A stretch of DNA of 64,000 nt, from the NCBI RefSeq assembly GCF_902500225.1, contig NZ_LR722658.1, positions 62,001-126,000 on the forward strand, in the 5' to 3' direction. Below are positions 32,722 through 45,996 of the stretch, one piece after another. How positions within the stretch are numbered: position 1 is the stretch's first letter; every line of letters begins with the position of its first letter. The position numbers and the translations under genes were made by a program. The notes below the pieces were generated by a model. The model did not search any database. It saw only the letters and a program-made list of their open reading frames with translations, and was not told the origin of the DNA. The stretch comes from Buttiauxella massiliensis. Lineage in GTDB: Bacteria > Pseudomonadota > Gammaproteobacteria > Enterobacterales > Enterobacteriaceae.

Positions 32722-33297
32722 TTAGCCCATAATTCCGCGCAGCTGCAACTGCTGTAACAGAATCACTGTTTTTCCGTCACGAATTTCACCTGTTGATACC
32801 ATTTCCAGTGCGCGGCTAAACGGCAATTCGAGCACGTCGATATCTTCATCATCAATGCCGCCACCGGCGTTTTCACGTTGGGCATCGCTGTATTCGGCCA
32901 TGTAAAAGTGAATCAGCTCCGTCACGCCGCCCGGCGACATATATAGCTCAAAGACTTTTTCGACTTCCCCTACTTCGTAGCCGGTTTCTTCGATAGCTTC
33001 TTTGCGGGCGCAAACTTCCGGTTCATCGGCATCCAGCAAACCGGCACAGGTTTCAATCAACATGCCGTCAGCATTACCGTTAACCCACGTAGCCACGCGG
33101 AACTGACGCGTCAGCACCACGGTGTTTTTATCGCGGTTATACAGCAGCATGGTTGCGCCGTTACCCCGGTCATAGACTTCACGTTTGTGGCGAATAGCTT
33201 CGGCTTCGTTACGGTATAGATCGTAGGTGATATTGCGCAGGATGAAGTAATTATCTGAGAGGACTTTATCTTTGATGACTTCGATTTTAATCGACAT
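32722..33297 (-). CDS. nudK: GDP-mannose hydrolase NudK
   Basis: NudK, a Nudix hydrolase, cleaves GDP-mannose to GMP and mannose-1-phosphate. The 191-residue protein, the E. coli length, has the Nudix box as a glycine, GLLDADEPE, then [14 protein letters not shown] (about residues 85-108). [10 protein letters not shown] and [12 protein letters not shown] are also conserved. It stands alone between two ERIC elements. Confidence 0.94.
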
Positions 33298-33373: not shown

Positions 33374-33502
33374 GATTACCCTAAATAATTCGAGGTGCAG
33401 GCAGGCGGCAAGGCCGTAAGTCCCCAGGAGCATAGATAACTATGTGACTGGGACGCACGGGTGCAGCCAACACACCTGCACCTCGAAGTATGACGGGTAA
33501 TC
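33374..33502. repeat. ERIC element 5, between nudK and napC
   Basis: About 129 bases with ends GATTACCCTAAATAATTCGAG...CTCGAAGTATGACGGGTAATC. The centre GAGCATAGATAACTATGTGA is the reverse complement of the centre of element 2. The right end overlaps the last two bases of the napC stop codon. Confidence 0.92.
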
Positions 33503-34103
33503 AAAAACCGTTTTTTACTTCACTCATGTCGGGCAACTTATGCGCAATCCCCTTGTGGCAATCCACGCAGGTTTGCCCATCTTTGACCGCTTTATCATGC
33601 ATCTTTGCCGCGACGGTTTTCTGCGCGGTGAAATCCATGAAATCAAAGTTATGACAGTTTCGGCACTCTTGCGAATTGTTGTTTTTCATTCGCCGCCACT
33701 CGTTTTGCGCCATCGCCAGGCGGTGGTCATCAAACTTTTGCGGCGTGTCGATTAAGCCAAACACTTTGGCATACAACTCTTTGCTGGCCTGAATTTTACG
33801 TAAAATTTTGGGCCCCCATTCGTGGGGAACGTGACAGTCCGGGCAGGTAGCCCGCACGCCGCTGCGGTTATTGTAGTGCACCGTCTGCATATATTCTTCG
33901 TAGACGTTGGCGCGCATTTCGTGGCAACCGATACAAAACTCTTCGCGGTTGGTCATCTCCATGCCGGTGTTAAAACCGCCCCAGAAAATAATCCCACCAG
34001 CGAAACCAATCAGGAGCAACGTGCCGAGCGCCAGGCGGCTCGGGCGACGCCACCACTGCCATATGCGGCGGATGATGCCGGGCTTACGGGTTGATTTATC
34101 CAT
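33501..34103 (-). CDS. napC: Membrane tetraheme cytochrome c NapC
   Basis: NapC takes electrons from the quinol pool and passes them to NapAB in the periplasm. The 200-residue protein has one N-terminal membrane anchor (about residues 22-45) and four CXXCH heme sites (CIGCH, CPDCH, CRNCH, CVDCH). It is the last gene of napFDABC. In an operon without napGH it is the only visible quinol dehydrogenase. In E. coli the ccm genes for cytochrome c maturation follow; here they do not. Confidence 0.97.
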   Translation of the reverse strand: MDKSTRKPGIIRRIWQWWRRPSRLALGTLLLIGFAGGIIFWGGFNTGMEMTNREEFCIGCHEMRANVYEEYMQTVHYNNRSGVRATCPDCHVPHEWGPKILRKIQASKELYAKVFGLIDTPQKFDDHRLAMAQNEWRRMKNNNSQECRNCHNFDFMDFTAQKTVAAKMHDKAVKDGQTCVDCHKGIAHKLPDMSEVKNGF

Positions 34104-34111
34104 AATGGCCT

Positions 34112-34549
34112 CTAGTTCCCAAAACCTTTAGACGGCGTGAATGTGTTTTCAACAATCGGCGCTGCATCGGTTTGAGGGACATGGCATTGCAGGCAGAAGT
34201 AACGACGCGGTGCCACATTAGAAAGCACGTTGCCGTCGCTGTCCATAAAGTGCGTCGGGCTAACGCGCGGCGCTCCCGTGGTGCGGTAATGTTCGACACC
34301 GTGGCATTGCAGACAACGGTTGGTGTTTTTGGAAACCTGATAGCCGTCGACGCTATGTGGGATCATCGGCGGCTGGTTTACGTAATTCAGCGCCATACGC
34401 CCCTGCTGTTTCGGCATTTTGACAGAGCCTTCCGGCGTGCCGGAAACCTCTGGCGACTGCGTGAGATCAACGCTGTTCGCCGCCCACAATGCGCCACTGA
34501 CCAAAAACACCAACGCCGTCATCCATTTGAATAACATTTTCTTGTTCAT
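34112..34549 (-). CDS. napB: Periplasmic nitrate reductase diheme subunit NapB
   Basis: NapB relays electrons from NapC to NapA. The 145-residue precursor has a signal peptide (about residues 1-23, ending ALWA) and two heme sites, CLQCHGVEH and CLQCHVPQ, with conserved histidines in MIPHSVDGYQ and SPTHFMDSDG. It lies 10 bases after napA and 8 before napC. In E. coli napG and napH lie between napA and napB; here there is no room for them. Confidence 0.97.
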   Translation of the reverse strand: MNKKMLFKWMTALVFLVSGALWAANSVDLTQSPEVSGTPEGSVKMPKQQGRMALNYVNQPPMIPHSVDGYQVSKNTNRCLQCHGVEHYRTTGAPRVSPTHFMDSDGNVLSNVAPRRYFCLQCHVPQTDAAPIVENTFTPSKGFGN

Positions 34550-34559
34550 GATATCCCCC

Positions 34560-37046
34560 TTAAACCTTCGCCAGTTTTACTGCGCATTTCTTGTAATCCG
34601 TCTCTTTGGAGAGCGGATCGGTCGCATCCAGCGTCAGGTTATTCACCAGTTGCGCGGCATCAAAGAACGGCATGTACACCAGACCCTGCGGTGGGCGGTT
34701 GCGCCCGCGAGTTTCAACAATCGAAATCACTTCGCCACGGCGCGATACCACTTTCACTTTGTCGCCACGGCGCAAATCACGCTTTTTGGCATCAAGCGGA
34801 TGGATAAACAACAGCGCTTCCGGGAAGGCACGGTGCAGTTCCGGTACGCGGCGCGTCATACTGCCGGTGTGCCAGTGTTCCAGCACGCGTCCGGTGGATA
34901 ACCACAGGTCGTATTCTGCATCCGGGGATTCTGCCGCTGGCTCAAATGGCAGTGCGAAAATCACCGCTTTGCCGTCCGGCTTGCCGTAGAACTTGAAGCC
35001 TTCGCCCGCTTTCACGTAAGGGTCATGACCTTCGCTGTAACGCCAGAGTGTTTCTTTGCCATCGACCACCGGCCAGCGCAAACCGCGCGCTTTGTGGTAA
35101 TCATCAAACGGAGCGAGATCGTGCCCGTGACCACGGCCAAATGCGGCGTACTCCTCGAACAACCCTTTTTGCAGGTAGAAACCTAACTCGTGGGATTCGT
35201 CATTCAACTGCCCTTCAGCCAGTTCAGTGACCGGGAATTTGCTGACGTTCGAGTTAGCAAACAGCACGTCAAATAGCGTTTTGCCCCGGTATTCTGGTTT
35301 CTGATCGATAAGTTCCACAGGCCACACTTCTTCAACTTTGAAGCGCTTCGCAAACTGGACGAGCTGCCAGAGATCCGATTTTGCCTCACCCGGTGCCTTG
35401 ACCTGCTGGCGCCAGAACTGGGTGCGGCGTTCGGCGTTGCCGTAAGCGCCCTCTTTTTCCACCCACATTGCGGTTGGCAGGATCAGATCCGCGCTCAGGG
35501 CACTGATCGTAGGATATGGATCGGAAACGATGATGAAGTTGCGCGGATCGCGCCAGCCCGGCATACGCTCTTCGGTAATGTTCGGCCCGGCCTGCATGTT
35601 GTTGTTACACATCACCCAGTAGACATTGAGCTTGCCATCTTTCAGCGCGCGGTCCTGGGCCACGGCATGTAAACCCACTTTTGCCGGGATGGTGCCTGCC
35701 GGCAACTGCCACATGTTTTCGGTGATTTGGCGATGCTTCTCGTTCGTCACCACCATGTCTGCTGGCAAACGATGGGAGAAAGTGCCGACTTCACGCGCTG
35801 TACCGCATGCCGATGGTTGGCCGGTTAAGGAGAATGGCCCGCAGCCCGGCTGAGAGATTTTTCCGGTGAGCAAATGGATGTTGTAAACCAGGTTGTTGGC
35901 CCACACACCACGCGAGTGCTGGTTGAAGCCCATTGTCCAGTAAGAGATCACTTTTTTGTTCGGGTCGGCGTACAGCTTCGCCAGCGCTTCAAGCTGGTCT
36001 TGCGGAACACCGCTCATCTCAGCGGTTTTTTCCAACGTGTACTCGGCAACGAACGCTTTGTAATCTTCAAAACTCATTGGCTCAGAGGCATCTGAACCTG
36101 GGTTTTTCGCTGCTTTTTCCAGTGGATGCGTCGGGCGCAAACCGTAACCAATATCCGTCACGCCTTTACGCAGATTCACATGCTGCTTAAAGAAGGATTC
36201 GTTTATCGCGTTGTTCTGAATAATGTAATTGGCGATATAGTTCAAAATCGCCAGGTCAGTTTGTGGCGTGAACACCATGCCGTTATCTGCCAACTCAAAA
36301 CTACGATGCTGGAAGGTAGAAAGAACGGCGACTTCAACGTTTTCATTCGACAGGCGGCGGTTGGTGATGCGCGACCATAAAACCGGGTGCATCTCGGCCA
36401 TGTTCGAACCCCACAGCACGAACGCGTCGCCCTGCTCGATATCGTCGTAGCAGCCCATCGGCTCGTCCATGCCGAAAGTACGCATGAAACCCACAACAGC
36501 TGAAGCCATGCAGTGGCGTGCGTTCGGGTCAAGGTTGTTGGAACGGAAACCGGCTTTGAATAATTTAGAGGCGGCATAACCTTCCCATACCGTCCACTGG
36601 CCGGAGCCAAACATACCGACCGCTTCCGGCCCTTTCTCTTTCAGGCTGGTCTTGAATTTTTGCTCCATGATGTCGAAGGCCTGATCCCAGGTGATGGGAG
36701 CGAACTCACCTTCTTTATCATACTGCCCGTCTTTCATGCGCAACAGCGGCTGCGTAAGGCGGTCTTTTCCGTACATGATTTTTGGCAGGAAGTAGCCTTT
36801 GATGCAGTTCAGGCCACGGTTAACCGGCGCATCCGGGTCGCCCTGGCTTGCAACAACTCGCCCGTCCTGGGTACCGACTAATACGCCACAACCGGTGCCG
36901 CAGAAACGGCATGGGGCTTTGTCCCATTTGATAGCATCTTGTTTCCCGACAACCGCACGGGCAACGCTCGGTACGCTAAGGCCAGCGGCGGCCGCCGCGG
37001 CTGCAATAGCGTTCGCTTTCATAAAGCTACGACGACTGAGTTTCAT
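34560..37046 (-). CDS. napA: Periplasmic nitrate reductase catalytic subunit NapA
   Basis: NapA reduces nitrate to nitrite in the periplasm at a molybdenum bis-MGD centre. The 828-residue precursor, the E. coli length, has a twin-arginine signal ([10 protein letters not shown]), a [4Fe-4S] site ([13 protein letters not shown] with the fourth cysteine in GLNCIKGY) and the molybdenum-ligand cysteine in [16 protein letters not shown]. The start overlaps the napD stop by 4 bases. Confidence 0.98.
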
Positions 37047-37306
37047 GGTGTTTCCTCACCTTGCTCATCCTGCTGGTGATAAACCAGCGACACCGCCAGC
37101 ACGCCCGCAATATTGCGTGCCGACTCGATTTGATTCAGCAGCACGTCACTACGTTCTGCTTCCATAACTACGACCAATTTGCCGTGTTCAGCATCACTTG
37201 CCGCGACTTCGCTGCCAGGTAATTCGTTTAATGCGGCACTGACCGCGAGAATATTGTGTGGTTGCGCCTGAACGACCAGGCCTACGACATGCCAGTTAGC
37301 TCGCAT
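37043..37306 (-). CDS. napD: NapA signal-peptide chaperone NapD
   Basis: NapD is a small cytoplasmic chaperone that binds the Tat signal of NapA until the cofactor is loaded. The 87-residue protein shows the ferredoxin-like fold pattern ([32 protein letters not shown]). It overlaps napA by 4 bases and napF by 11. Confidence 0.95.
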
Positions 37307-37787
37307 TTGCGTGCCTCATCTTGATGGCTGAAACCGGACAACCCGATATACATGCCCCGCAAGCGGTGCAATCGGTGTGATTGAGCAGAGGTTGTGCGAT
37401 ACCCTGCAAAGAAGGGTGAAATGAAATAGCCTGCATGTCGCAGGTGTCCTGGCAGCTACGGCATTCGATGCTGTTTTTAGCCAGGCAGTTATCGCCAATC
37501 GACAGCGTGTGTTCCCACGGGGAAACGTCACGCGCCAGGAAGAGTTGTTCCGGGCAAGCTTGTGCGCAGGCGTAGCAAAAAGTGCATTCACCGTGATCAA
37601 AGTTAACTTCGGGATAGCCGCCCTGGCCGCGTTTCAGAACGCGAGTTTCGCAGGCCGACAAACAGGTATCGCAGCGAGTGCAATCCACAAGGAAATGGTT
37701 TTCATCTCCGCTCCAGGGTGGGCGGAAAGCAGTTGCGGAGCGTCGAAAGCTCCCGGTCAATAATCCACGTCGGGAAAAATCAGCCAT
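37296..37787 (-). CDS. napF: Ferredoxin-type protein NapF
   Basis: NapF is a cytoplasmic iron-sulfur protein tied to NapA maturation. The 163-residue product has ferredoxin-type cysteine clusters: CTRCDTCLSACE, CTFCYACAQACP, CRSCQDTCD and CTACGACISGCP. MADFSRRGLLTGSFRR begins at the ATG at 37787, with AAGGATG upstream. It is the first gene of the operon; about 200 bases upstream hold NarP-like heptamers and an FNR-like half-site. Confidence 0.95.
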   Translation of the reverse strand: MADFSRRGLLTGSFRRSATAFRPPWSGDENHFLVDCTRCDTCLSACETRVLKRGQGGYPEVNFDHGECTFCYACAQACPEQLFLARDVSPWEHTLSIGDNCLAKNSIECRSCQDTCDMQAISFHPSLQGIAQPLLNHTDCTACGACISGCPVSAIKMRHANAS

Positions 37788-37918
37788 CAGGCACATCCTT
37801 GCATCACAAATGCCGCCTTAGCAGTGCTGAAGCCGGCAAACACACCTGTGTTATCTCCGTAATTTTCTACGGGTTTTTATAGAGTGATACGTTATGTGAC
37901 AAAGGGGGAGTAGAGGCA

Positions 37919-37953
37919 TCACCCTTTAGGGGTAAATACAGGGGTAGGATCAA
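37919..37953 (-). promoter_or_regulatory. Candidate NarP/NarL and FNR sites of the nap operon
   Basis: TCACCCT-TT-AGGGGTA (37919-37934) is a 7-2-7 arrangement like the NarP site TACCNMT-N2-AKNGGTA: the right half is a full match and the left matches at about five positions. A second heptamer AGGGGTA stands at 37940-37946. Next to it, on the minus strand, TTGATCC (37953-37947) resembles an FNR half-site. Location about 130-165 bases upstream of napF. Confidence 0.6.
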
Positions 37954-37973
37954 AAAGGAATTCGGTTTGTAAA

Positions 37974-38007
37974 ACAAACACTCACCCCGACTCACAGACG
38001 GGGTGAG
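37974..38007 (-). terminator. Terminator of aegA
   Basis: A perfect 9-bp stem CTCACCCCG/CGGGGTGAG with a 9-base loop follows the aegA stop on the minus strand and leads into TGTTTGTTTTA, a broken T-tract. Confidence 0.7.
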
Positions 38008-38015
38008 ATTAACGT

Positions 38016-40337
<2,322 letters not shown>

Positions 40338-42053
40338 GTGATAGTAAAACGCTCGCTCTCCACAAGCCTTGCCCGAGCTTTCTTTTACATTATTCTGCTA
40401 TCGCTGCTTTCCACAGGCATCGCGATGTTAACCCTTGCCAGCAGTTTGCGAGATGCCGAAGCGATTAACGTCGCAGGTTCGTTACGTATGCAGAGCTATC
40501 GCCTGGGATATGATTTGCAAGGCGACCGCATCAATCTGGACAAACATCTTGAGCAGTACAGCCAGTCGCTGCGCTCTCCAGCCCTGCTTAAAATTGAAAA
40601 ATTCTGGGTTCCTGCTGAAGTCCGTAACCGTTTCGCGGTGATTAACCATGCCTGGTCCGATATGGAAAACCATATTCGCCAGGGCGATTTGCAGTGGTAC
40701 AAGGCCAACATTACCGGCTATGTGGCACAAATTGACCTGTTTGTCCTGGCCCTTCAACATTATGCCGAACGCAAAATGATGCAGGTGGTGATAGCTTCAG
40801 TGGTGGGCTTTATTGCCATTTTCACGCTGGTCTTTTTCACCCTACGCCGCTTTCGCCACCAGGTTGTGGCACCTCTGAACAAACTAATGGAAGCAAGTCG
40901 CACTATTGAACGCGGTGAGTTTGATTACCCACCACTAAACACACAGCTACCCAATGAGCTGGGCTTGTTGTCACATACTTTCACGCGCATGTCGGGCGAG
41001 TTACATAAACTTTATCGTTCACTTGAAGAAAGCGTGCAGGAAAAAACGCTGCACCTGCAGGAAGCCAATCAGACGCTGGAAGTGCTATATGCCTGCTCAC
41101 AGGCACTGACCGTCAGCACCATAGACCAGTACTGTTTTGAAAGAGTATTGCAGCAGGTACGTCAGAAAACACCGGTCAATTATCTAGAGATGAAAACGGG
41201 TGAAAACTGGAAAATACAGGAAGGTGTTAAGCATGATAATGATGCATGGCAAATATTGCCGATTGTGCTTGAGAATAAAGAATTAGGTTTGCTCCGCTGG
41301 CAGGCTCCAGAAGGTGTTCCGCCACTGCCATTAATGCAAAGTCTGGCAAATATGTTGGGCCGTGGTCTCTACTTCAACCAGGCGCAAAAGCACTATCAAC
41401 AATTGCTGCTGATGGAAGAGCGCGCGACAATTGCCCGGGAATTACACGACTCGCTGGCGCAAGTGCTCTCTTATTTACGTATCCAACTCACGTTACTCAA
41501 ACGTGCGGTACCGGCAGAAAACCAGCCTGCACAGCGCATTATTGGTGATTTTTCCCAAGCGCTGAACGACGCCTACCGCCAGCTACGTGAACTGTTAACG
41601 ACCTTCCGCCTGACACTTCAGCAAGCCGATTTACCTTCCGCATTGCAGGAGATGATTGCCCCGCTGCGCAACCAGACTGAAGCCGTTATTACCATGGATT
41701 GCGACATACCCACTCAGGCGCTGGATGCCTCGCAACAGGTACATTTACTGCAGATTATTCGTGAGGGTGTGCTGAATGCTATTAAACATGCGCACGCACA
41801 AAAAATATCCGTAAGCTGTAATACATCCCCTAATGGGATTCATACTGTGAGTATTCTTGATGATGGTTCTGGAATTGCCAGTCTGACGGAGCCTGAAGGG
41901 CATTACGGATTGAACATTATGCACGAACGCGCAGCTCGTTTAGGTGGCGAGCTGGCTATTTCCCGCCCCGCAGAGGGTGGGACGTTGATTACGATGACTT
42001 TTCGTTCGCCGCCGTCAGACCAGGCAACGAACGAAACGCCGGTGAACCTATAA
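40338..42053 (+). CDS. narQ: Nitrate/nitrite sensor histidine kinase NarQ
   Basis: NarQ senses periplasmic nitrate or nitrite and phosphorylates NarP (and NarL). The 571-residue protein has two membrane helices (about 14-34 and 146-167), the periplasmic P-box nitrate site in NVAGSLRMQSYRLGYDL, a HAMP domain (PLNKLMEASRTIERGEFDYP), a HisKA_3 box with the phosphorylated histidine in TIARELHDSLAQVLSYLRIQ, and an ATPase domain (GLNIMHERAARLGGEL). Its start is GTG with no strong ribosome site. narP follows after 32 bases. Confidence 0.96.
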   Translation: MIVKRSLSTSLARAFFYIILLSLLSTGIAMLTLASSLRDAEAINVAGSLRMQSYRLGYDLQGDRINLDKHLEQYSQSLRSPALLKIEKFWVPAEVRNRFAVINHAWSDMENHIRQGDLQWYKANITGYVAQIDLFVLALQHYAERKMMQVVIASVVGFIAIFTLVFFTLRRFRHQVVAPLNKLMEASRTIERGEFDYPPLNTQLPNELGLLSHTFTRMSGELHKLYRSLEESVQEKTLHLQEANQTLEVLYACSQALTVSTIDQYCFERVLQQVRQKTPVNYLEMKTGENWKIQEGVKHDNDAWQILPIVLENKELGLLRWQAPEGVPPLPLMQSLANMLGRGLYFNQAQKHYQQLLLMEERATIARELHDSLAQVLSYLRIQLTLLKRAVPAENQPAQRIIGDFSQALNDAYRQLRELLTTFRLTLQQADLPSALQEMIAPLRNQTEAVITMDCDIPTQALDASQQVHLLQIIREGVLNAIKHAHAQKISVSCNTSPNGIHTVSILDDGSGIASLTEPEGHYGLNIMHERAARLGGELAISRPAEGGTLITMTFRSPPSDQATNETPVNL

Positions 42054-42085
42054 CGATAATAATGTGAACAATATTGGGAGTTGTG

Positions 42086-42730
42086 ATGAGTGAGAAAAAT
42101 GTCTGCCAGGTATTAATCGTCGATGATCATCCGTTAATGCGCCGTGGCATCCGCCAGTTGCTGGAAATGGATGACAGTTTTAGTGTGGTGGGTGAAGCAA
42201 GCAGCGGCGCAGAAGCCATTAGCCTTGCGAATCGCCTGACCCCTGATCTGATTTTGCTCGATCTGAATATGAAAGGCTTGAGCGGGTTGGACACGTTAAA
42301 CGCCCTGCGCCGTGATGGCGTCAGTGCCCGTATCGTCGTGCTGACAGTTTCTGATTCGCGCAGCGATATTTTCACCCTGATAGATGCCGGAGCAGACGGT
42401 TATTTGCTTAAAGACAGCGACCCGGACGTACTGCTGGAAGATATACACCGTGGTGCAACTGAAGGCGAAGCTTACAGTGAGCAAGTTGCTGAATACTTAC
42501 GAACCCGCAGCACAGATAAACGCAGTGATGACCCTTTTGCAGTATTAACCGAACGTGAGCTAGATGTGTTGCAAGAAGTTGCCAAAGGATTGTCAAACAA
42601 GCAGATTGCCTCTGGCCTGCATATATCAGAAGAGACTGTGAAAGTGCATATACGCAATTTGCTGCGCAAACTTCAGGTGCGTTCGCGAGTCGCGGCAACA
42701 GTACTTTTCCTTGAAAATCGGGGCTTCTAA
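42086..42730 (+). CDS. narP: Nitrate/nitrite response regulator NarP
   Basis: A NarL/FixJ-type response regulator of 214 residues. The receiver domain has VDDHP, the phospho-acceptor aspartate in ILLDLNMKGLSGLDTL, and the lysine in GYLLKDSDP. The C-terminal LuxR helix-turn-helix is LTERELDVLQEVAKGLSNKQ through VKVHIRNLLRKLQVRSRVAA. The sequence is NarP-like, not NarL-like (LNALRRDGV, LRKLQVRSRVAATVLFLE). GGGAG precedes the ATG. In E. coli narP is far from narQ, beside the nap-ccm genes; here it forms an operon with narQ. Confidence 0.94.
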   Translation: MSEKNVCQVLIVDDHPLMRRGIRQLLEMDDSFSVVGEASSGAEAISLANRLTPDLILLDLNMKGLSGLDTLNALRRDGVSARIVVLTVSDSRSDIFTLIDAGADGYLLKDSDPDVLLEDIHRGATEGEAYSEQVAEYLRTRSTDKRSDDPFAVLTERELDVLQEVAKGLSNKQIASGLHISEETVKVHIRNLLRKLQVRSRVAATVLFLENRGF

Positions 42731-42879: not shown

Positions 42880-45800
42880 ATGGCGAATTTCTTTATTAAT
42901 CGCCCCATTTTTGCCTGGGTGCTGGCCATTATTTTGTGCCTGACCGGCGCACTGGCTATTTTTTCATTGCCCGTAGAGCAATATCCCGACCTCGCTCCGC
43001 CAAATGTGCGAATCACTGCGAACTACCCTGGTGCGTCAGCACAAACGCTGGAAAACACGGTCACTCAGGTTATCGAGCAGAATATGACCGGGCTGGACAA
43101 CATGATGTATATGTCGTCCCAAAGTAGCAGCGCAGGCCAGGCGACGATCACGCTGAGCTTTAAAGCCGGAACCGACCCAGATGAAGCCGTGCAGCAGGTG
43201 CAAAACCAGTTGCAATCTGCATTACGTAAATTGCCGCAGGCCGTGCAAACCCAGGGCGTAACGGTTAGAAAAACCGGCGATACCAACATTCTAATGGTGG
43301 CGTTTGTGTCTACCGACGGCAGCATGGATAAGCAAGATATCGCGGACTACGTCGCCAGTAATATTCAGGATCCTATAAGCCGTATTAACGGCGTCGGTGA
43401 TGTGGATGCCTACGGTTCGCAATATTCAATGCGTATCTGGCTCGACCCGACCAAACTCACCAGTTTCCAGATGACCACGCAGGATGTGGTGGATGCGATT
43501 AAATCGCAGAATGCACAAATTGCGGTCGGGCAGCTAGGTGGAACGCCTTCTGTCGATATGCAGGCGCTGAACGCCACCGTTAATTCTCAGTCACTGCTGC
43601 AAACGCCGCAGCAATTCAAAGACATTACGCTGCGTGTAAATCAGGATGGATCTCTGGTTTCGCTGGGCGATGTTGCAGAAGTTGAACTAGGTGCCGAGAA
43701 GTACGACTTCCTGAGCCGTTATAACGGGCAAGCAGCGTCAGGCCTGGGAATTAAACTCGCCTCGGGCGCTAACGAGATGGAAACTGATAAACTCGCCCGC
43801 GCAAAAATTGAAGAATTATCGCAGTACTTCCCTCATGGCCTGGAAGCGAAGATTGCTTACGAAACCACGCCTTTTGTGAAAGCCTCGATTACTGATGTAG
43901 TGAAAACTCTGCTGGAAGCCATCCTACTGGTATTCCTCGTCATGTATCTTTTCTTACAGAACTTCAGAGCGACGTTAATTCCGACTATCGCCGTGCCGGT
44001 AGTATTATTGGGTACCTTCTCCGTCCTGTATGCGTTTGGCTACAGCATTAACACCCTGACGATGTTTGCCATGGTTCTGGCTATCGGTTTGTTAGTTGAC
44101 GACGCCATCGTGGTGGTCGAAAACGTTGAACGCATCATGAGTGAGGAAGGGTTATCACCCAAAGAAGCGACCCGAAAATCAATGGGCCAGATCCAAGGCG
44201 CGTTGGTTGGGATTGCAATGGTGCTGTCAGCGGTGTTTGTACCGATGGCATTTTTTGGCGGCACCACAGGGGCGATATACCGCCAGTTCTCGATAACCAT
44301 CGTTTCCGCGATGGTGCTATCAGTATTAGTGGCAATGATTCTGACGCCCGCGTTGTGTGCCACCATTCTCAAGCCATTGCATAAAGGTGAACATCACGGC
44401 CAGAAAGGTTTCTTTGGCTGGTTTAACCGCATGTTTAACCGCAATGCACTGCGCTATGAATCTGCTGTCGGCAAAATTCTGGCGCACAGTCTGCGCTGGA
44501 TCCTGATTTATGTGCTGCTGATTGGCGGCATGGTGTTCCTGTTCCTGCGCCTGCCAACCTCTTTCCTGCCGCTGGAAGATCAGGGTGTATTCACCACTTC
44601 AATACAATTGCCGAGCGGCTCTACGCAGCAGCAAACTACCAAAGTGGTGGAAAAGCTTGAGCAGTATTATCTGACCAAAGAGAAAGATAACGTACTGTCG
44701 GTGTTTGCCACTATAGGCTCCGGCCCCGGCGGTAACGGGCAAAACGTGGCGCGCATGTTTGTACGCCTGAAAGACTGGGATGTACGTGACCCGAATACCG
44801 CCAGTTCTTTTGCCATTATCGAGCGGGCAACAAAAGCCTTCCGTGATATTAAAGAAGCACGTGTGATAGCCAGCAGCCCACCGGCCATCAGCGGTTTAGG
44901 TAACGCAGCTGGGTTTGATATGGAATTGCAAGACCACGCAGGTGCCGGGCACGATGCGCTCATGCAGGCGCGCGATCAGTTACTGGATATGGCGAGCGAT
45001 GAAAAACTGCTGACTCGCGTGCGTCACAACGGTTTAGACGATAGCCCGCAAATGCAGATCGATATCGACCAACGAAAAGCGCAAGCATTGGGCGTATCCA
45101 TTGACGATATCAATAACACGCTGCAAACCGCCTGGGGTTCCAGCTACGTGAACGATTTTATGGATCGTGGCCGTGTGAAAAAGGTATATGTGCAGGCAGG
45201 AGCGAAATATCGCATGCTGCCGGAAGACATTAACCAGTGGTATGTGCGTAACAAAGACGGTGGAATGGTGCCTTTCTCTGCTTTTGCCAGCTCGCACTGG
45301 GAAACAGGGTCACCACGTCTCGAACGTTATAACGGTTATTCAGCTTTGGAAATTGTCGGTGAAGCAGCACCTGGTGTAAGTACCGGGACCGCGATGCAGG
45401 TGATGGAAACCTTGGTGCAAAAGCTGCCAACAGGTTTTGGCCTGGAATGGACCGGTATGTCTTATCAGGAACGGCTATCAGGGGCGCAGGCTCCAGCGCT
45501 GTACGCCATCTCGCTATTAGTGGTGTTCCTGTGCCTGGCGGCACTTTATGAAAGCTGGTCAGTGCCATTCTCGGTGATGCTGGTTGTTCCGTTGGGGGTA
45601 GTTGGTGCACTGCTGGCAACCTGGATGCGTGGGCTGGAAAACGATGTGTACTTCCAGGTGGGGCTGTTAACGGTTATAGGATTGGCGGCCAAGAACGCCA
45701 TTCTGATTGTTGAGTTCGCCAACGATATGAATGCCCAGGGCCGCGAACTGGTTGCCGCAGCGCTTGACGCCTGCCGCCAACGTTTACGCCCGATACTGAT

Positions 45801-45996
45801 GACATCCCTGGCGTTTATCTTCGGCGTGTTGCCAATGGCAACCAGCAGCGGTGCGGGTTCCGGTAGCCAGCATGCAGTGGGTACCGGGGTGATGGGCGGG
45901 ATGATTTCAGCGACCGTGCTGGCGATATTCTTCGTGCCATTGTTCTTCGTGCTGGTGCGCAGACGATTCCCGCTCAAAGAACATTCAGATAGCTAA
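42880..45996 (+). CDS. acrD: Aminoglycoside/multidrug RND efflux pump AcrD
   Basis: AcrD is an inner membrane RND proton antiporter that exports aminoglycosides and other amphiphilic compounds through AcrA and TolC. The 1038-residue product has twelve predicted membrane helices. The proton-relay aspartates are in [16 protein letters not shown] in helix 4, and the lysine is in [16 protein letters not shown] in helix 10. The start [17 protein letters not shown] is standard. It lies downstream of narP in the same direction, 149 bases apart, as narQ-acrD neighbours do in E. coli. Confidence 0.96.

Follow-up and report, generated by a model that had tools for sequence, protein, structure and literature searches.

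A periplasmic nitrate-respiration locus of Buttiauxella massiliensis that very likely still occupies the ancestral site between acrD and nudK

The window analysed here is a stretch of 64,000 nucleotides of the Buttiauxella massiliensis genome (contig NZ_LR722658.1, positions 62,001 to 126,000), which carries at positions 33501-42730 the napFDABC genes of periplasmic nitrate reductase, the oxidoreductase gene aegA, and the genes of the sensor kinase NarQ and the response regulator NarP. We conclude with considerable confidence that this block represents the normal locus for periplasmic nitrate respiration in its lineage and has remained between acrD and nudK, where it ancestrally lay. A first-pass annotation had correctly placed these genes in one 9-kb block, and had correctly stated that E. 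coli has narQ and aegA at this site and nap and narP with ccm in another region; in E. coli K-12, narQ-aegA lie between acrD and nudK, with napFDAGHBC-ccmABCDEFGH-narP elsewhere. It read the block as a regrouping, either the older arrangement, split in E. coli, or a secondary gathering. The layout is standard within the genus and unremarkable there, since the order acrD-narP-narQ-aegA-nap-nudK recurs in 10 of the 11 congeners, the eleventh being undecidable. The older arrangement is retained and the secondary gathering is not, because this order is the genus standard, narP beside nap is the commonest state in the family (37 of 60 nap genomes), and the adjacency is present in Vibrio, Aeromonas and some Psychromonas.

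Conservation of the block in the genus and its uniqueness in the genome

Each of the 12 genus genomes has one napA, the 11 congeners at 96-99% identity. In the undecidable congener (G006), the contig starts 5.2 kb upstream of napF; an RHS/YD-repeat-like open reading frame (ORF) was recognized by eye at this contig start. The window genome, a 4.88-Mb assembly of 46 contigs with a stated completeness of 100, contains one full napA, one narP and one ccmF. Its next-best narP match (45%) coincides with the 92% match of K-12 NarL, beside narX-narK-narGH, and this narXL-narK-narGH group is carried by a third contig. The ccm genes form a stand-alone ccmABC-EFGH cluster on another contig (ccmD was not sought), and the nap and narP references gave no match in the surrounding 36 kb that were fetched. 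The genome yielded no second nap-ccm-narP locus, and the original observation thus stands. A NapA-related oxidoreductase (36% in the best piece), possibly assimilatory, is encoded from about position 2814 of locus L104 (contig C45), a few kb from narL-narX-narK-narGH.

Arrangement in the family and in the outgroups

The family sample comprised 246 genomes, of which 65 have napA, 74 narP (E<=1e-75) and 74 NarQ (E<=1e-130), and outside the genus 60 of the 62 genomes with napA were examined. The commonest state, a narP, alone or paired with narQ, that is divergent from nap, accounts for 37 of them. The regulator adjoins nap at the acrD/yffB/nudK markers in 29 of the 60; narPQ-nap is found without these markers in the stretch fetched in 3 (one, G136, has acrD just beyond), and adjoins a reversed ccm cluster in 5. 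In 3 others, nap-nudK and acrD-narP-narQ-aegA are on separate contigs, which is consistent with the block layout. The E. coli-type nap-ccm arrangement is seen in 17, including G055, cut inside ccmA by a contig end, while nrf-nap-ccm occurs in 2 and narP-nrf-nap in 1. Two other genera include three genomes (G037, G028, G173) that have the full order of the window, aegA included, and napGH in addition.

Beyond the family, 80 named NapA loci were surveyed, 16 of which hold less than 6 kb upstream. A NarP/NarL-like and a NarQ/NarX-like gene lie upstream of nap on the opposite strand in 24 of these 80 loci, among them Vibrio, Enterovibrio, Grimontia, Photobacterium, Aeromonas, Endozoicomonas and two Psychromonas; five loci have the regulator only and one the sensor only. 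We infer that the narPQ-nap adjacency is older than the family and was followed by later losses.

Several points weigh against this reading. Neither gene is upstream in 50 of the 80 loci, including E. coli-type, Haemophilus, Ferrimonas and Colwellia, so that the adjacency of the regulator pair and nap is not universal. At the acrD-nudK site, aegA was seen only within Enterobacteriaceae proper among the loci examined, and is absent there in g65, g71, g99 and L009, so that explaining its adjacency to nap takes several losses or multiple insertions. We derived the ancestral state from outgroups and counts and not by formal reconstruction. Furthermore, the best FNR-like site ahead of napF in the window agrees at 6/10 positions only, no full site being present there, and the mechanism proposed below, with its expression, enzyme activity and phosphotransfer, is a prediction.

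Graded erosion at the acrD-nudK site

The 59 acrD loci fetched from other genomes were scored for the reference genes beside acrD. We found narQ-aegA-nudK in 17, nudK only in 13, aegA-nudK in 9, narP-narQ-nudK in 6 and none in 6; the rarer states were narP-narQ-aegA in 3 (contig ends), narP-nudK in 2 and narP-narQ in 2. All four references are present in a single locus, that of G205, whose narP match spans 130 residues only. The 59 loci include all 17 E. coli-type genomes, 13 of which have narQ-aegA and 4 aegA alone (g81, g43, g109). The site thus shows graded erosion, and the narQ-aegA pair of E. coli there looks like a remnant. Erosion would have reduced the site to narQ-aegA, or to aegA, in the E. 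coli group, where nap stands with ccm and mostly also with narP.

In the E. coli-type genomes, narP and napA share a contig in 15 of the 17, about 10-12 kb apart; narP is on another contig in G055, and no narP match at E<=1e-75 was obtained in G225 or in the two Providencia-type genomes. NarQ gave no match at E<=1e-130 in the two Providencia-type genomes or in those with nap-ccm from g109, g81 and g43 (loci L140, L149, L151, L138, L146, L147), where nitrate control may use another sensor, perhaps NarX.

Vertical descent of the block and probable exchange of the E. coli-type cluster

Trees were built from rpoB DNA (39 genomes), from five concatenated Nap proteins, from NarPQ and from CcmF; those of Nap, CcmF and NarPQ are quick trees supported by the Shimodaira-Hasegawa-like approximate likelihood ratio test (SH-aLRT) only, and two other trees were made with FastTree. 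The branch of the window, (g71,(g65,g1)), is identical in the rpoB, Nap, NarPQ and CcmF trees: the block of the window has descended vertically.

The case of the E. coli-type cluster is different, according to the trees and to approximately unbiased (AU) tests. In the rpoB tree, Enterobacteriaceae proper form one clade (100/99) with Providencia outside, and in the Nap tree 11 E. coli-type genomes, G084 and 2 Providencia-type genomes form one clade (SH-aLRT 99). A topology that keeps Enterobacteriaceae together and excludes Providencia is rejected by nap (p 0.004, mixture model, four Pectobacterium-type rows left out) and by ccmF (p 0.002, LG+G4; the first ccmF test left out the Pectobacterium-type rows). 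The grouping of Providencia with five other genomes is rejected as well (p 5e-41, LG+G4), a group that itself has no support in the rpoB tree. The E. coli-type nap and ccm genes were therefore probably exchanged horizontally with Providencia, in either direction, and relocation would also have been involved. The proposal that E. coli simply split the older block is thus half sustained: narQ-aegA were kept at the old site, and a plain split is improbable, because the nap and ccm genes of E. coli group with those of Providencia against rpoB.

We propose tentatively, and at a little short of even chances, that the nap-ccm-narP cluster of E. coli is a horizontally shared cassette that replaced the ancestral nap-narP of the acrD-nudK site, with narQ and aegA as remnants; NarQ would then be native, and nap, ccm and perhaps narP newcomers. 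Less likely than not, though far from negligible, is a relocation of nap and narP to ccm inside the E. coli lineage itself, with nap-ccm later passed to Providencia and the native nap never replaced. In its favour, the nap-ccm clade including Providencia falls among the Enterobacteriaceae nap genes (98), and the nap-linked CcmF adjoins the native CcmF of g1, g65 and g71 (98). Two observations speak against such a relocation within the lineage: g81 and g43 group in rpoB with the acrD-site genera g3 and g99 (93/97, not starred), a grouping that nap rejects (p 2e-5, LG+G4), and G225 has two ccmF, one native and one nap-linked, as an arrival would give.

The exchange part of our interpretation must be read with two reservations. 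The groups submitted to the AU tests were picked after the trees had been viewed, which makes the p values lenient. The Pectobacterium-type narPQ-nap-ccm cluster appears nested inside Enterobacteriaceae in the trees, and this nesting is not upheld by the AU tests with the mixture model (nap p 0.36, Providencia rows left out; NarPQ p 0.197), so that the cluster may lie either within or beside Enterobacteriaceae. For this reason, we claim a transfer of narPQ-nap-ccm for G058 only. This genome carries narP, narQ and ccmF in duplicate, a narPQ-nap-ccm set being present besides the native narPQ and the native ccmF, and its nap-linked set groups with Pectobacterium-type genomes instead of its rpoB relatives. 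Grouping with these relatives is rejected under LG+G4 for nap (p 9e-5) and, as regards their native copies, for the nap-linked ccmF (p 1e-9). Two genome titles may be wrong: L017 (titled Serratia marcescens 1001295B) groups in the trees with the Pectobacterium type, and L023 (titled Enterobacter cancerogenus M004) with g146.

Other origins of the block

A secondary gathering of scattered nap, narP, narQ and aegA in the lineage of the window is very improbable. The separation of these genes in E. coli and in 17 of the 60 sampled nap genomes would favour it; the predominance of narP-nap neighbours in the family, their presence in Vibrio and Aeromonas, and the retention of narPQ at acrD in genomes devoid of napA (G129, G035, G113, G060, G078) contradict it. 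That the window genome recently acquired the block as a mobile sensor-regulator-enzyme island is hardly credible, for although the G058 unit seems to have moved as one piece, as the first-pass annotation had imagined, the same flanks enclose the block in 10 of the 11 congeners, no tree conflict was seen for the branch of the window, and the G+C content of the block in 2-kb steps (0.475-0.558) overlaps that of the rest of the window (0.425-0.546), the napA stretch being the highest.

Comparison with known systems

Parts of this picture are already in print. In Erwinia amylovora, NarQP is reported upstream of acrD, as in the window, only NarQ being there in E. coli and S. enterica (PMC3915751); unlike the window, the passage on this locus mentions no nap, and its NarQ is reported to be 328 aa long. 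In Pectobacterium atrosepticum, nap, narP and narQ are likewise grouped, but in a nap-ccm-narPQ-nrf cluster and not with acrD-nudK, according to the passage of PMC3349551 on this group. NarQ-NarP is described as the sole such pair in some gamma-proteobacteria (PMC1805755), and operons under narL/narP or gntR/idnR control are said to have been acquired after the duplication of the regulators, in a passage that does not name them (PMC2395238). E. coli K-12 has the same gene families and differs by its two separate loci and by the presence of napGH. Vibrio and Aeromonas share the narP-narQ pair divergent from nap, whereas neither acrD/nudK flanks nor aegA were found in the loci surveyed.

A literature search limited to titles and abstract openings returned no account of the link between the nap-ccm clusters of E. 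coli and Providencia, and we consider this exchange history a more interesting by-product than an ordinary ancestral locus. With the locus of the window, where sensor, regulator and enzyme are side by side, as the reference state, the E. coli layout on which the NarXL/NarQP cross-talk studies are based becomes a derived state. The acrD-nudK site and its graded remnants offer a test case of how a regulated operon can disappear, be replaced or change place without its sensor following.

Gene content, regulatory sites and proposed mechanism

Family models were run on ten named genes of the window, and all those of the block exceed their curated NCBIfam cut-offs. From nudK to acrD, napFDABC and aegA are on the minus strand and narQ-narP on the plus strand. 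The conserved left flank is nudK (32722-33297, minus strand; NF011585, E 1.1e-108), and the conserved right flank is acrD (42880-45996, plus strand; NF007842). The nap operon is complete and collinear in the order FDABC: napF (37296-37796; TIGR00402) encodes a ferredoxin-type protein, napD (37043-37306; NF007840) the NapA chaperone, napA (34560-37046; NF010055 and TIGR01706, full length) the catalytic subunit, and napB (34112-34549; NF008609) and napC (33501-34103; NF007906) c-type cytochromes, the latter of which we take to be the quinol-oxidising membrane subunit. The FeS/flavin oxidoreductase gene aegA (38016-40013; NF009408) is listed as an ORF up to 40037, its family match beginning at residue 9, hence at 40013. 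On the plus strand, narQ (40338-42053; NF008184) encodes a nitrate/nitrite sensor kinase, the NarQ model giving 831.5 bits (cut-off 553) against 298.8 for NarX (cut-off 578), and narP (42086-42730; NF007708) a response regulator with 376.1 bits for the NarP model (cut-off 343) against 249.3 for NarL (cut-off 250), which identifies both as equivalogs. The narP ORF was listed from a TTG at 42074; the ATG at 42086, preceded by GGGAG, corresponds to residue 1 of the family match and confirms the spacing of 32 bases after the narQ stop noted earlier.

The locus had no napG or napH match in the 12 genus genomes and so does not belong to the E. coli subtype, in which napGH stand between napA and napB. 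These genes (window gap 34549-34560) are also missing in several other genera and are present in L009, G037 and G028, a scattered distribution that suggests repeated loss.

A candidate NarP/NarL-type 7-2-7 site, TACCCCTAAAGGGTGA, is located upstream of napF (37919-37934, minus strand) and agrees with 12 of the 14 positions of the consensus that we assume for scoring. It is identical in the 12 genus genomes, and, when the 330-base stretch upstream of napF was shuffled 300 times by mononucleotides, 3% of the shuffles scored 12 or more. The K-12 counterpart ahead of napF, TACCCCGATCGGGGTA, lies at a similar distance. In 8 of the 10 listed narQ-nap spacers devoid of aegA, narQ and napF have best NarP-type sites that are reverse complements of each other, i.e. 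one shared site; aegA therefore separates the two promoters in the genus of the window. The FNR sites tried ahead of napF, narQ and aegA in the window were weak or not significant. The divergent aegA/narQ spacer holds a weak FNR-like site (40136-40149, 8/10), not significant alone as shuffles give 0.59 sites scoring at least 8 per spacer, and a similar site precedes the aegA match by 112-130 bases in all 6 genus genomes listed. Promoter and terminator scans gave 4 promoter-like sites versus 9.3 in shuffles, and 15 terminator-like sites versus 11.3 (standard deviation 3.8).

In the mechanism that we propose from the known families, NarQ would sense nitrate or nitrite and phosphorylate NarP, which together with FNR at low oxygen would turn on napFDABC through the 7-2-7 site ahead of napF. 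Electrons would flow from quinol to NapC, NapB and finally NapA, which would reduce nitrate in the periplasm. AegA, encoded divergently from narQ, is a neighbour. In the window, 219 bases separate napF from the aegA ORF; the gap between the two genes extends to 3 kb in L106 and about 4.5 kb in L111, where it encodes an AraC-type regulator and antiporter-like and aminotransferase-like proteins recognized by eye (L111:6480-10461).

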